Shown piece by piece: positions 18,064 to 24,986 of a stretch of 35,746 nt of DNA (position 1 is the first letter of the stretch; the number at the start of each line of letters is the position of its first letter). The notes under the pieces were generated by a model. It saw only the letters and a list, made by a program, of their open reading frames with translations. It did no database searches and was not told the DNA's origin. Source of the stretch: Lentisphaerota bacterium (GTDB taxonomy: Bacteria > Verrucomicrobiota > Kiritimatiellia > RFP12 > JAAYNR01); NCBI GenBank assembly GCA_012520735.1, contig JAAYNR010000140.1:1-35746 (forward strand). The letters are read 5' to 3'. A program made the position numbers and the translations under genes.

Positions 18064-18593
18064 CCCTCAGTAAATCTTTTCACGAATACTTCATGCACAT
18101 GGCCATGCGCGAGGCTGCCAAAGCTGCCGCTGCAGGTGAAGTCCCTACCGGCTGTGTTATTGTCCGGATGCCCACAGCCGCAGATCTACTCCCTGCATCA
18201 GCCAAACTGCTGGGGCGTGCCCACAATCAAACCGAACTCCTTAAAGACCCTACAGCACACGCCGAGATGATAGCTATCACTCAGGCCGCCGCGGCTGCCG
18301 GCGACTGGCGCCTCGATAACACCATCCTCTATGTTACCAAGGAGCCATGCCCCATGTGTGCCGGTGCTATCGTACTTGCCCGTAATACCACGGTGGTTTA
18401 TGGTCTCCCCGATCCCAAACGTGGTGGTAACTCTGTCTTTAACCTCTTCGACCACCCCGGACTGAACCACCGCCCAACTGTGATCAGTGGGATACTTCAG
18501 GATGAATGCCACGAACAATTTGCCGCTTTTTTTCGCGCCTGCCGCCACGGTCTTGTCCCTAAGCCCGCAACTGCAGAGATCCCCCCCCCATAA
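18060..18593 (+). CDS. tadA: tRNA(adenine34) deaminase / nucleoside deaminase
   Basis: GEVPTGCVIV, DPTAHAEMIAI, TKEPCPMCAGAIVLAR zinc deaminase motifs; ATGA overlap with upstream gene. Confidence 0.85.
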   Translation: MTLSKSFHEYFMHMAMREAAKAAAAGEVPTGCVIVRMPTAADLLPASAKLLGRAHNQTELLKDPTAHAEMIAITQAAAAAGDWRLDNTILYVTKEPCPMCAGAIVLARNTTVVYGLPDPKRGGNSVFNLFDHPGLNHRPTVISGILQDECHEQFAAFFRACRHGLVPKPATAEIPPP

Positions 18594-18655: not shown

Positions 18656-20773
18656 ATGAACCTTTCACAACGACGTTTCTGTAACACTCTCACCAAAGCC
18701 GATGTTGGCAATAAGGTGATACTTGCCGGCTGGGTCGATGCTTTCCGCGACCACGGCGGCCTCCTTTTTATCCATCTGCGCGACCGCAGTGGCCTGGTTC
18801 AGGTGGTCTTTAACCCTGAACAAGCCGATGCCGCTACCTGCCGCACGGCCGAATCGCTCCGCTCTGAATTTTGTGTAGCTGTTAGCGGAATGGTCATAGA
18901 TCGCACCCCGGGCACCGAAAACCCCCACCTCGATACCGGCACCATTGAAGTCATGGCGCAGACTCTGAAAGTTCTTGCCGACTCCGCCCCGCCACCTTTC
19001 CAGATCTCTGAGAAAGAGATGGTCGCCGGCAGTGTCACCGCCACCAGAGAGGATGTCTCTGAAGAGCTCCGCCTCCAGTACCGCTACCTTGACCTGCGCC
19101 GCCCCTCAATCCGCAACAACATGATTGCCCGGCATAAAATATATCAGTGCGCCCGCCGTTTTCTTGATGAACGTGACTTTGTCGAGGTCGAAACCCCCAT
19201 GCTCACCATGAGCACACCCGAGGGTGCACGTGACTATCTGGTGCCGAGTCGGGTTCACCCACACAACTTCTACGCACTGCCGCAATCGCCACAACTGTTT
19301 AAACAGCTCCTCATGGTTGGGGGTCTGGAACGCTATTTTCAGATTGCCCGCTGCTTCCGCGATGAAGACCTCCGCCCGAACCGTCAGCCGGAGTTTACAC
19401 AGATCGACCTCGAAGCCTCGTTCATTGATGAAGAATTTATCTATGAATTGGTCGAGGAGCTCACAGTACGGCTCTTCGCCGTTGGCGGTATCGAACTGCC
19501 ACGCCCCTTCCCCCGTATCACTTACGACGAAGCCATCGACACCACCGGTTCTGACAAACCCGACCTCCGCTTTGGCCTCCGTTTTGTCGATGTCACCGAC
19601 ATTTTCAGCGATACCCAATACACTATCTTCCGCCAGATTCTCAAACGTAACGGCTGCATCAAAGGGATTAATGTAAAGGGTCAGTCGGAAAAATTGAGTA
19701 AAAATGTACTCCAAAATGAATATGCTAAAACAATCGTCCCCTCATTCGGTGCTAAAGGGATGACCTGGATGCGAGTTGAAAATGGCACACTGGAGTCGAA
19801 TATTGTTCAATTTTTCAGCGATACCGAGCTGGAAAACCTTAAGACGCGTTTCGCCGTTGAAGAAGGTGATGTTTTGTTGCTGATCGCCGATGCCTCTTAC
19901 GATCTCGTCACCTCAGCACTAGGTCAGTTGCGCCTCCATATTGCCAATCGCCTTGGCCTCATCCCTAAAAACAGCTGGGCACCGGCCTGGGTCACATCCT
20001 TCCCTCTCTTTGAAGCGACTGATGAGGGTGGTGTCTCCTCCAAGCACCACCCCTTTACAGCTCCGGATCGTACCGACTTTGACCCCCATAACATCAACGA
20101 TCTACTCGCCCTTAAGTCGCGCGCTTACGATCTGGTCATGAACGGCGAAGAGCTCGGTGGCGGCAGTATCCGCATTAACGACCGCACTCTACAACGTAAA
20201 ATATTTACCGCCCTTGGCCTCACCGAAGAAGAGACCCGGGAGAAGTTTGGCTTTTTCCTGCGTGCCTTCGACTTCGGTGCCCCACCGCATGGTGGCCTCG
20301 CTCTCGGTATGGATAGGCTAGTAGCCATGATCCTGCAACTCCCCTCAATCCGAGAAGTTATCGCCTTCCCCAAAAACCGCAGTGCCAGTTGCCCGCTCAC
20401 CGGCGCACCAACCCCAGTAGCCGACAAACAACTTGCCGAACTCAGCCTGCTCAACCTTGGTAATCAGAGTCGTGGTGCTGCTGCACAAATTACCGACAGC
20501 ATCAGCACCCTCTCCTGGTTGGCTCGTATCGCAGTAAATAGTACCGAGCGCCCACTCATTGAAAAAGCAGTTGCAGAGGCTGACGCTCTGGCCGACTTTG
20601 CCGCTGCTAATGCCGGTAGTGAAGAACCGATGCGCACCGTAGCCCCACCGGCCGGACAGAGACGCCCCGGTGATACCGCCATTGCTAACAGTGCCGCCGC
20701 TGCCGGTGAACTTTTAAAACTCGCCCCCGCCACCAAAGGCGGTTATTACAAAGTGGCAGCGGTCATGGAGTAG
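18656..20773 (+). CDS. aspS: Aspartate--tRNA ligase (bacterial type with GAD insertion) with a C-terminal GatC-like extension
   Basis: AspRS motifs: RYLDLRRP, FVEVETPMLTMSTPEGARDYLVPSR, FRDEDLRPNRQPEFTQID, GALALGMDR-type GGLALGMDRLVAMI, FPKNRSASCPLTGAPTPV; residues beyond this (ITDSISTLSWLARI...LLKLAPATKGGYYKVAAVME) resemble GatC. Confidence 0.95.
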   Translation: MNLSQRRFCNTLTKADVGNKVILAGWVDAFRDHGGLLFIHLRDRSGLVQVVFNPEQADAATCRTAESLRSEFCVAVSGMVIDRTPGTENPHLDTGTIEVMAQTLKVLADSAPPPFQISEKEMVAGSVTATREDVSEELRLQYRYLDLRRPSIRNNMIARHKIYQCARRFLDERDFVEVETPMLTMSTPEGARDYLVPSRVHPHNFYALPQSPQLFKQLLMVGGLERYFQIARCFRDEDLRPNRQPEFTQIDLEASFIDEEFIYELVEELTVRLFAVGGIELPRPFPRITYDEAIDTTGSDKPDLRFGLRFVDVTDIFSDTQYTIFRQILKRNGCIKGINVKGQSEKLSKNVLQNEYAKTIVPSFGAKGMTWMRVENGTLESNIVQFFSDTELENLKTRFAVEEGDVLLLIADASYDLVTSALGQLRLHIANRLGLIPKNSWAPAWVTSFPLFEATDEGGVSSKHHPFTAPDRTDFDPHNINDLLALKSRAYDLVMNGEELGGGSIRINDRTLQRKIFTALGLTEEETREKFGFFLRAFDFGAPPHGGLALGMDRLVAMILQLPSIREVIAFPKNRSASCPLTGAPTPVADKQLAELSLLNLGNQSRGAAAQITDSISTLSWLARIAVNSTERPLIEKAVAEADALADFAAANAGSEEPMRTVAPPAGQRRPGDTAIANSAAAAGELLKLAPATKGGYYKVAAVME

Positions 20774-20784
20774 TACTTTAACCG

Positions 20785-23700
20785 CTATCTGAAAGTATCC
20801 TGCAACTCATCAAGGCTCATCTGTTTTTCAGCCTCGGCACCACCGTCAACAACAAGCAACAGTCGGGCCGGTGCCACTCCCGGCGGCTTGCCGGAGCGGA
20901 GTAACCAAGCTGTAGCAGAGGTTTTCGCGCCGCCGCCCATCGCCAGTAAAGCTGCCAATTGTGACTCGTCAGTAAGCTCCAGATTTACTGCTATATTGGT
21001 TTTACCGTGAGGTGCCATATTCAATGTCAGGTCTGCCCCGTCAGCCAGTTTGACCACCCCCTCAGGGACAAACTTCAGCCTGACTACATCTCTGACAGCA
21101 ACCGCACTATGGTTAGTCGCCGATATCTCAAGCACACCCTTGACAGCTCCCTCACGCGATAATAGAGGAGTGGTGAGCCGCATCCGTGTGGCCACCATAT
21201 CGTCAACTGGCGACTGTGGCAAAAAGCCATCGCCATGGAGATCAATATAAACGGGATTGGTGATCGCAGCATGGCTCAACTTCCCCTCACCACCATCTTT
21301 GCGTTGGCGCAAGTTTGGCCCGGAACCGCGGACAATAGCAATAAAGTGTGTGTCTTCATGCAGCTCAACCGCAAAACTCTCTTTAAACTGCACAGGCCCC
21401 GACATAAAACGATCCGGGTTAACACTCCGCAACACTCGCATAGCCGGATCAGTTACACCATTACGTAATACCTCTACCTCCTCAACTTCAATCCAGTTTG
21501 GGGCCTGCACCGTTAAATTAACAGCAACCTCTCTACTTTGAGCCATAACCATATCACCTGGACCCCCTACCTCTTCTGAGTTAGCGGTGACCGCAAGGAG
21601 ATCGACAAACGGTCCGGTTGTCATGAAAACATGCCCTTTTTTAACTGCTGCCATTATCTTCACAGGGTCAATAACACCGGGTTTAGCCCCCTCATACCTC
21701 ACATAACTGCGAAAGCGACCCACACCATGAAAATTGTGATGCGCCGCACTCCCTATTACTGCTGGCAGTCGCCAACCATGCCGTACCGTCTCCAGCCAAC
21801 AGAGAATATCGTTTTCAAGCCGTTTTTTAGGATCATTAAGAGAGTCAAGCGTACGGACATCCCAGGCGTGAACTGTTGCCGCTGTATGATGCGAGATACG
21901 GTCGGGGATACCATCGCCATCACTGTCACGCAACAGCGGTTTAAAGAAGGCACGTTTATCACGCCAGTCAATGGCGATATCAGCATCACGCCACATAGAG
22001 CTGTAGAGGTCATAATTCCTGACATGTTCCGGTGCCATCGTGTTGTCGGTTTGTGTCACCACAATTAACTTCTCATAACCCAAATGGATGTTACGCAAAG
22101 CCTCCCATGGGTCATCAGGTGGAAACGGCGAGCCCCAACTACGTAACCAGTCGATCTGCGAACAGTGCTGTGGACGTTGCGGCACACCACCATCCTGCTG
22201 ATGCTTTTTATACGGTATGGGGAAGGCACACTGCTCATTAAAAGCATATTTACGACCATCTCTAGTGAGCCTGATGCCGCTGCAAACCGATATCCACTCG
22301 CCAAGCCCCATACTTTTAACCAGCGGTGTATCGTCGGCCACTGTGTTACTCTCTGTTGTCGGAGCAAAGTCAATTTGCTCCGCTACCAGATTGAGCAGCC
22401 GCCCCTCAGGCGTATTACTGAGATATCCATGATCTCTGGTAAAAGCACTCCGTGCCGACAACGTATTAAAATCGACACTCACCCAACCACTACTCTCTAC
22501 CACCCGCTCTATGTTTAATTCAACTGCCCTCTCTGTCCCCGCCTCAAGCTTTACCTCTACCGCTGCAAAATTGTATTCCGGACCTCTGGTGGCAATAATA
22601 CGGTAGTGCCCTGCTGGCACCTCCTGACGCAACTTACCATCAGTGGTATAGACTAAATTACCCACCAGATTAGAACCATCTTCATTAAAAAACTGTGGGT
22701 CTGGAGTCTCTCCAAGTCCACGAAACTCCACCTTACAAGGTAAGCCGACACCACCCTGATCACGCACCGTCGCTGTCACCCACGCCTTTTCAACAAAAGA
22801 GAAATTCAGCTCACTCTGCTCTGGGAGCCTAACCTCAACACTTTTATCTGCTTCTCCAAATGTTGATGCCACCAATTTATAGAGACCATCCGGGGCGTGT
22901 ATCTCCAAAACACCGTCAGCACCGGTTTTGCCGGCCCCGTAAAGTTCTCGTCCACTCTCCAACCTGATCAAAATCCCGGCCCGTGGGCCACGCTCATCAA
23001 CAGTCTTAATCCGTAACGGGAACTGCTCCATTTTACCCAACTCATTGGCCACTCGCCGCACAGCAAACAGGTCATCACCAGGTATCAGCATGGCCCATAT
23101 CTTATGAGTTTCTTCCGGTTTCAGCTTGGCATTCTGTTGTGCTGATGTACCACTCCAGACACCATACGCCTGACCCATAAAATGGTCGTAGGCCCAAGTC
23201 AGTTTACCATCTATTGAACGCCCCTTAAGAACATCCTTGCCGGCCACCTGCAGATATGGCGCTGATGGACACTGACAAACAAACTCGGTGGCCGGTGCTG
23301 AGCGTGGTATCACCACCTCTGCTGCGGCCTCATCCGGTGCATCATCACCCATTATTACAGCGAGTACATCAATATCACGCTCCGCCTTTAACTGAGCCGC
23401 AATTGACTTCTTCACATTTTCCCGACGCCGCTTCAGCCACCACCCCTCACTCTTGCCGGCTCCAAAAGCCTCACCGGTATTATAAAACTCAACCTCTACC
23501 CTGACAAACGCCTCACCATCACGCAAAGTATAACGAATCTTAGCCGGACAAAAATACGAATAGTGCGGTTTACCACTGACAGTCAGGGTCACTTCCACGC
23601 CCTCTTGTCGCTCAAAAGCATCGGCATAATGAGGGTCATAGTAAGCGGCCCCTTTTACAAGATCACTGGCGACACTGCCAACATCAGCCCCCAAGCGGAA

Positions 23701-24000
23701 AAGAGTGAGCAAATCATTGGGTCTGTCGCGAAAGGTAAGGTCTACTACTCCACCCCCCGCCTGCAACATAATCCGTCCACTGCTGCGCCCCATCCGCAAC
23801 TCATGGTTGGCCACTACAGCCACAATACGATCATTAACTAAAACATAATCACCCAGCACAGCTCTAACACTAGGCCCCTTTGGTGCCAGTAACTCCCAAT
23901 TTGACAGGCGCAACACATCAAGCTCTGCTCCTTTAACACCAAACCCCCCCCCCCCGACAGCCAGTAAAGCCAAAACGGTTATGTAACCCTGCCTGAACAT
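20785..24000 (-). CDS. Large secreted CehA/McbA-like (PHP-domain related) protein, putative metal ligands degenerate
   Basis: Signal peptide MFRQGYITVLALLAVGGGGFGVKGA; GWVSVDFNTLSARS at the position of GWxxxDxHxHS; GVGRFRSYV; AITNPVYID near C-term as in this family; the ORF track start at 24081 would read through a terminator hairpin. Confidence 0.68.
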   Translation of the reverse strand: MFRQGYITVLALLAVGGGGFGVKGAELDVLRLSNWELLAPKGPSVRAVLGDYVLVNDRIVAVVANHELRMGRSSGRIMLQAGGGVVDLTFRDRPNDLLTLFRLGADVGSVASDLVKGAAYYDPHYADAFERQEGVEVTLTVSGKPHYSYFCPAKIRYTLRDGEAFVRVEVEFYNTGEAFGAGKSEGWWLKRRRENVKKSIAAQLKAERDIDVLAVIMGDDAPDEAAAEVVIPRSAPATEFVCQCPSAPYLQVAGKDVLKGRSIDGKLTWAYDHFMGQAYGVWSGTSAQQNAKLKPEETHKIWAMLIPGDDLFAVRRVANELGKMEQFPLRIKTVDERGPRAGILIRLESGRELYGAGKTGADGVLEIHAPDGLYKLVASTFGEADKSVEVRLPEQSELNFSFVEKAWVTATVRDQGGVGLPCKVEFRGLGETPDPQFFNEDGSNLVGNLVYTTDGKLRQEVPAGHYRIIATRGPEYNFAAVEVKLEAGTERAVELNIERVVESSGWVSVDFNTLSARSAFTRDHGYLSNTPEGRLLNLVAEQIDFAPTTESNTVADDTPLVKSMGLGEWISVCSGIRLTRDGRKYAFNEQCAFPIPYKKHQQDGGVPQRPQHCSQIDWLRSWGSPFPPDDPWEALRNIHLGYEKLIVVTQTDNTMAPEHVRNYDLYSSMWRDADIAIDWRDKRAFFKPLLRDSDGDGIPDRISHHTAATVHAWDVRTLDSLNDPKKRLENDILCWLETVRHGWRLPAVIGSAAHHNFHGVGRFRSYVRYEGAKPGVIDPVKIMAAVKKGHVFMTTGPFVDLLAVTANSEEVGGPGDMVMAQSREVAVNLTVQAPNWIEVEEVEVLRNGVTDPAMRVLRSVNPDRFMSGPVQFKESFAVELHEDTHFIAIVRGSGPNLRQRKDGGEGKLSHAAITNPVYIDLHGDGFLPQSPVDDMVATRMRLTTPLLSREGAVKGVLEISATNHSAVAVRDVVRLKFVPEGVVKLADGADLTLNMAPHGKTNIAVNLELTDESQLAALLAMGGGAKTSATAWLLRSGKPPGVAPARLLLVVDGGAEAEKQMSLDELQDTFR
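23944..23955. repeat. 12-nt homopolymer (C12 on +, G12 on the coding strand) inside the signal-peptide coding region
   Basis: aaaccccccc cccccgacag at 23941-23960. Confidence 0.9.
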
Positions 24001-24029
24001 CTCCCCCCTGTTACCAAAACAATACGCAA

Positions 24030-24064
24030 AATAAAAAGACGGGCTCCCTGTACGGAGGCCCGTC
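24030..24064 (-). terminator. Rho-independent terminator of the RRM protein gene
   Basis: Minus strand: GACGGGCCTCC-gtacag-GGAG.CCCGTC followed by TTTTTATTTT, just after stop at 24093. Confidence 0.85.
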
Positions 24065-24092
24065 TGTTTTGTGCCACTCAAGCGGGTTTAAA

Positions 24093-24443
24093 TTACCAGC
24101 GTGAGGTGCCGCGTTCGCGACGATCGCCACCTTCGCGGCGCCCACCACCAAAGCCGCCACCACCGTAGCCACCGCCACCGCCACGAGGGCGCTCAGTGCG
24201 GGGTTTCGGCTGCGACTCATTAACGCGCAATGCACGCCCGCCGACCTCGCGACCATTCAAAGCGGCGATTGCCGCATTGGCCTCTTCGGCGTTCTCCATC
24301 TCAACAAAACCGAAGCCCTTGCTACGGCCTGTCATGCGGTCCACACAAACGCGAGCCGAACTGACGCTCCCGTATGCTGAGAAAAAATCTCTCAGCTCGT
24401 CATCGCTCGTCGAATAAGCGAGGTTACCAACGTAGATATCCAT
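24093..24443 (-). CDS. RRM-domain RNA-binding protein with glycine-rich tail (Rbp-type)
   Basis: MDIYVGNLAYSTSDDELRDFFSAYGSVSSARVCVDRMTGRSKGFGFVEM (RNP1/RNP2), GGGGGYGGGGFGGGRREGG tail; SD GAGAAGG before 24443. Confidence 0.95.
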   Translation of the reverse strand: MDIYVGNLAYSTSDDELRDFFSAYGSVSSARVCVDRMTGRSKGFGFVEMENAEEANAAIAALNGREVGGRALRVNESQPKPRTERPRGGGGGYGGGGFGGGRREGGDRRERGTSRW

Positions 24444-24986
24444 GATACCTTCTCTCTTCTGCTTCTCTGCCGCCATGTTGCTTGTCTGTAATGGGTGAAT
24501 CCGTAGCGCATGGCACACTGCGGCTCCAAAGGCCTGTTGTAAGCCTATGCGCCTCGCCACCGCTGCACTGTACAGCGATGTAGCAAAGGTACACCCAAAA
24601 GTGTTGAAATTATGAAAATTGAGGAAAAACAAGCTGCATCTTTTGGTGCAACCAATTGATAAAAGCAGTGAGAAACGTCTTTTCTGACGCTTAAAACGAC
24701 CCGTACTACGGCTGAAACTCTCAAACAATTACCTTAACATTATATCCGCACACGGCGAATTATCGCCAGTTCCGGTACTCCGAGACTCACCAGCCTCAAG
24801 AAGAGAGATACCTTCCCCTTTTCGATTGCCGCCTATCTTACCACTTATCCTATTTTCCCGCAAGCAGAAATTTCAGCACAATTTTGAATTTTTGGTTTTG
24901 ACTTTTTCCCCAGCTCCCCTGTATACTGCGCCTTGGAATAAATTTATTTTTTTCATTGGCTTCGCCCCCCTAAAGAAGGAACAATT

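Follow-up and report, generated by a model that had tools for sequence, protein, structure and literature searches.

In the translationally phase-variable poly-G/C genes of Campylobacter, Neisseria and Helicobacter, a G-tract lies in the 5' part of the coding sequence and a change of one base in its length truncates the product (PMC6321876; gonococcal lgt genes, cited in PMC5084427). In Campylobacter, where tracts of at least 7 G/C are counted, poly-G/C lengths peak at 9-10, every poly-G/C tract of at least 8 varies in C. jejuni NCTC 11168, and the neutral drift of three glycine codons into nine Gs is one listed origin of such tracts (PMC6321876). Poly-G can also act from a promoter spacer, as in the meningococcal porA gene (van der Ende 1995, cited in PMC5084427). 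In Verrucomicrobia, homopolymer tracts of more than 8 bp in 17 genes of Akkermansia muciniphila have been described as a possible resource for phase variation (PMC3048395), and our literature searches on phase variation in related uncultured groups found nothing. In this study, we have analyzed a window of 35.7 kb (the whole stretch of 35,746 nucleotides) from a Lentisphaerota bacterium that carries a G12 tract near the start of a gene for a large secreted protein. The tract shares the 5' coding position and the truncating outcome of the genes above, and exceeds the Campylobacter cut-off. A working switch would add a poorly studied uncultured group to those with contingency loci. Our overall verdict is that G12 is real sequence and mostly ordinary, its role as a switch being that of a candidate.

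The G12 tract and its gene

The tract occupies positions 23944..23955 on the minus strand, where it forms four GGG codons (Gly16-Gly19). Read from the start, this strand is ATG TTC AGG CAG GGT TAC ATA ACC GTT TTG GCT TTA CTG GCT GTC GGG GGG GGG GGG TTT GGT, exactly the V-GGGG-FG codons that a first-pass annotation, made from the letters alone, had placed about 45-56 nt after position 24000; the run is exactly 12 bases long and, counted from the A of the ATG, spans offsets 45-56. It had also been called the longest homopolymer of the window, and it is: the runner-up is a C9 run (18581..18589) at the 3' end of a cytidine-deaminase-type ORF, which is no 5' surface-gene tract. The frameshift that had been proposed to shut off the product was reproduced in silico, since tracts of 10, 11, 13 and 14 bases yield proteins of 21, 53, 22 and 54 amino acids, while lengths of 9 or 15 keep the frame. 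The run is long enough to slip and is placed where slippage of one or two bases, in either direction, alters expression by truncation. All four glycines are encoded by GGG, for which the chance is 0.002-0.005 under the codon usage of the 1,071-aa gene or of the window.

The gene itself (20785..24000, minus strand) is the large ORF that had been annotated as a 1072-aa CehA-like protein; its product has 1,071 amino acids plus the stop codon, and the likeness to CehA holds as distant homology and not as family membership. The NCBIfam model NF038032 (CehA/McbA) scores 70.5 bits against a curated cut-off of 80 and matches over profile positions 138-315 only, in the C-terminal half of the profile, and sequence searches of Pfam and PDB gave no match. 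Alignment with secreted homologues from the same phylum places D-F-N-T-L (22459..22473, minus strand) where these have D-[FWL]-H-N-H, and T-E-S-N (22345..22356, minus strand) where they have T-[ED]-H-N. Both HxH histidines and the third ligand histidine of the PHP-type metal site (HxH, T-[DE]-H-N) are thus replaced, whereas the phylum homologues keep them. The loss of three ligand histidines suggests that the protein is a degenerate relative of the CehA/McbA-type metallohydrolases, probably a non-catalytic pseudo-enzyme. Searches of 145 order genomes and 388 phylum genomes found no close orthologue, and the named genome collection, queried with the protein as well as a two-row alignment, yielded no relative.

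The signal-peptide codons (23929..24000, minus strand) encode MFRQGYITVLALLAVGGGGFGVKG, with probable cleavage before AEL as judged from the homologue signal peptides of P0002 (SAAEL) and of genome G244 (KGAEL). The N-terminus, MFRQGYITVLALLAVGGGGFGVKG-AELDVL, aligns with that of a paralogue on contig C131 (...SIISLLTVALSLSA-AELVTL) and with that of a homologue from a same-class genome (MSPVHLLLLFSVWATLAKG-AELLTL), and these two alignments support the start codon at 24000 as well as the signal peptide. The placement of the tract within signal-peptide codons, as first annotated, agrees with homologous N-termini that end in KGA-EL or SAA-EL. Neither the paralogue nor the G244 homologue has the glycine run in its signal peptide; both are distant homologues (about 29-40% identity) rather than orthologues proper, and relative to both aligned sequences the glycines read as an insertion.

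Upstream, a terminator-like hairpin (GACGGGC..GCCCGTC with a T-tract; 24033..24064, minus strand), whose stem is present in the fold and which a simple consensus scan missed, marks the end of the preceding gene about 33 nt before the ATG. That gene (24093..24728, minus strand) encodes an RRM RNA-binding protein (Pfam RRM_1, E=4e-26). The RNA around the start folds no more stably than shuffled sequences do (z=-0.42), and a consensus scan of 23850-24300 found no sigma-70-type promoter. The neighbouring gene on the plus strand (18656-20773) encodes an AspRS fused to a GatC-like C-terminal part; it matches the bifunctional NCBIfam model PRK12820 over its full length with 1200 bits, below the curated cut-off of 1379. 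Genomes of the same family carry an AspRS of about 600 amino acids that is 41-42% identical to it, and horizontal acquisition of the window's gene is possible.

Long G runs in the host genome

Genome-wide run statistics, which are pattern counts, show how the tract compares with chance. Under a first-order Markov model based on the dinucleotides of the window, about 0.009 runs of at least 12 G or C are expected per 35.7 kb, and about 0.66 when the same model is scaled to a genome of this size. G12 is unusual for one window and corresponds to about a once-per-genome expectation, and it was singled out afterwards as the window's longest run. The host genome (G000) holds 258 G runs of at least 7; three internal runs (those preceded by a non-G) reach at least 11, and one at least 12. 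Geometric decay predicts 0.67-1.7 runs of at least 11 and 0.15-0.5 of at least 12, and the probability of three or more runs of at least 11 is 0.03-0.24, depending on the decay, so a small excess of long runs is still compatible with it. Run lengths in this genome are near-geometric, with no genome-wide excess, unlike those of two genomes of the same order, G021 and G017. The genome's own distribution of G-run lengths separates a neutral tract, as in this genome, from genomes that keep long tracts.

G12 is the longest internal G run of the genome and falls within the first 60 nt of a gene for a secreted protein. Of the other two internal runs of at least 11, one lies 98 nt from the 3' end of mfd (contig C277) and the other midway through an aspartate-aminotransferase-like gene (contig C117); long runs are not concentrated in surface or secreted genes. 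The 21 runs of at least 9 include several at contig ends (C264, C196, C29, C120), the others being intergenic, mid-gene or 3', and the surface genes of this genome show no pattern of 5' G-tracts. The genome carries a full-length mutS, which is not decisive, as mismatch repair is retained in some phase-variable species.

A C17 run was considered as a second long tract and set aside, as it forms the last 17 bases of contig C264 and could be an end effect of assembly or sequencing. The long G/C runs found at the ends of C264, C196, C29 and C120 suggest either that the assembly broke at poly-G or that they are artefacts of two-colour sequencing.

Poly-G in candidate promoter spacers of order-mates

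Comparison of run lengths across genomes revealed, in order-mates, a recurrent -35/poly-G/-10 arrangement that precedes genes for large, mostly exported proteins. Among runs of at least 7, those of at least 11 make up 27/114 in G021 (Fisher p=4e-18 vs pooled genomes) and 17/51 in G017 (p=1e-15 vs pooled genomes), a heavy tail that is absent from the host genome and its nearest relatives. Many of the G021 tracts share the element TTAGCCTTGnCTAAC-[G9-30]-n2-5-TATACT (16 copies within one mismatch; L177, L178, L182, L183, L194, L245, L249, L252, L255 and others), with further copies in G004 (L236, L244), G043, G066, G109 (L239) and G123; the window's genome has zero copies, and the reversed control pattern also gave zero. 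The element precedes large, signal-peptide-bearing ORFs by about 20-150 nt, and its poly-G forms the spacer between -35 and -10, mostly of 16-19 nt and sometimes of 21 or 35.

A search for G9 followed by TATAAT or TATACT within 1-7 nt found sites in 26 of the 145 order genomes, vs 5 for the reversed control (loci L264-L292). When distinct sites were chosen by this pattern alone, 16 of 27 had a TTG hexamer (at least 4/6 of TTGACA) at 15-21 nt. Over all distinct sites the hexamer is present in 27 of 39, with a 17- or 18-nt spacer in 16 of those 27, and at 31 of the 39 sites the ORF that follows has a strongly hydrophobic stretch at its N-terminus. From their sequence, these -35 (TTGnCT)/poly-G/-10 (TATAAT/TATACT) sites look like a candidate promoter phase-variation system of the porA type. 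Alternatively, they could be plain G-rich spacers without switching, which would fit the interruption of some G004 spacers by an A. The arrangement is a stronger result than the window's tract, which lies outside this promoter set: G12 was also considered as a promoter spacer of the order-mate type and rejected, as it is not bracketed by a -35/-10 pair and its genome contains no match to the pattern.

Other repeat families with G11-G18 tracts occur in G017 (loci L205/L208/L209, L213/L214, L203/L211 and L206/L207), for example AAGTTTCTTAGATGATT-[G14-18]-TACAAGAACCGCATCCGCAG, and tracts also stand 7 nt before ATGAAACATATAAAAATGTTT. In G021, the N-run scaffold gaps at L179, L187 and L190 have long G-runs at one or both edges, and some tract lengths in that genome are therefore assembly-dependent.

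Competing readings and known systems

We regard it as probable that G12 arose as an unselected simple-sequence expansion that could in principle slip, and that it is no regulatory device, because the frequency of such runs is near chance and runs of the same class are found in housekeeping genes. The points counted in favour of this reading are the geometric run lengths, the mfd and aminotransferase runs, the homologues without a glycine run, mutS, the contrast with the heavy-tailed G021 and G017, and the neutral drift listed for Campylobacter tracts; those counted against it are a length that is switchable elsewhere, the rank of longest internal run, the 5' position in a secreted-protein gene, at which a switch would work best, the all-GGG glycines, and thin comparative data. 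The proposed course of events would be that the signal peptide tolerates extra small residues and that the gene gained three to four glycines, which, being encoded by GGG, would have produced a run long enough to slip. Slippage by one or two bases would then truncate the protein and turn it off, as follows from the sequence, and we infer that slippage probably takes place in this organism, with an effect that would be neutral or slightly harmful. G12 is most likely a mutational hotspot rather than a regulatory device.

The first-pass annotation had favoured a true translational contingency locus, in which slippage of the G-tract toggles the secreted protein between on (lengths 12, 9 and 15) and off (10, 11, 13 and 14) in a subpopulation. 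Its position, length, base and frameshift outcome all fit such a switch, the start and signal peptide are validated by homologues, and the promoter-spacer poly-G and heavy-tailed run lengths of the order-mates indicate that the order may use the mechanism. Nevertheless, we find this reading doubtful: the genome has no genome-wide signature, its run lengths being geometric, its long runs extending to housekeeping genes and its surface genes showing no 5' pattern; the tract is not conserved in the paralogue or in G244, distant as these homologues are; the promoter-type element has zero copies here; and mutS, though not decisive, is present. A more specific proposal, that G12 is a working translational switch for a secreted, catalytically dead protein derived from CehA and the counterpart of the order-mate promoter sites, so that the order would use poly-G at both levels, we consider decidedly unlikely. 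It is very unlikely that the real tract length differs through assembly or sequencing error, 12 being one choice among poor poly-G reads. The assembly does consist of 320 contigs, with long G/C runs at contig ends (including the C17 of C264), but the tract lies inside a 35.7-kb contig, its flanks are unique, and a length of 12 is one that holds the 1,071-aa frame open. A start downstream of the tract, which the first-pass annotation had named as fatal to its proposal, would turn the run into a non-coding leader. The GTG at codon 29 has a Shine-Dalgarno-like AAAGGAG 11 nt upstream, located after the tract, whereas the GGGGGGAG before the ATG at 24000 abuts the start codon. However, such a start would delete a signal peptide that is exactly in register with its homologues (KGAEL/SAAEL), which favours 24000 and makes the downstream start extremely unlikely.

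Unlike the genes of Campylobacter, Neisseria and Helicobacter, G12 is a single unconserved tract that belongs to no gene set, in a genome whose run lengths are geometric and not peaked, and it is known from one assembled sequence. In A. muciniphila the tracts are likewise candidate switches, but two of the tract genes there are capsule genes, whereas here the gene encodes a degenerate relative of metallohydrolases (PMC3048395). The window's tract differs from that of porA in lying within coding sequence, in a genome without such a promoter site; the closest match to porA is found in the TTGnCT-[G9-16]-TATAAT/TATACT sites of the order-mates.
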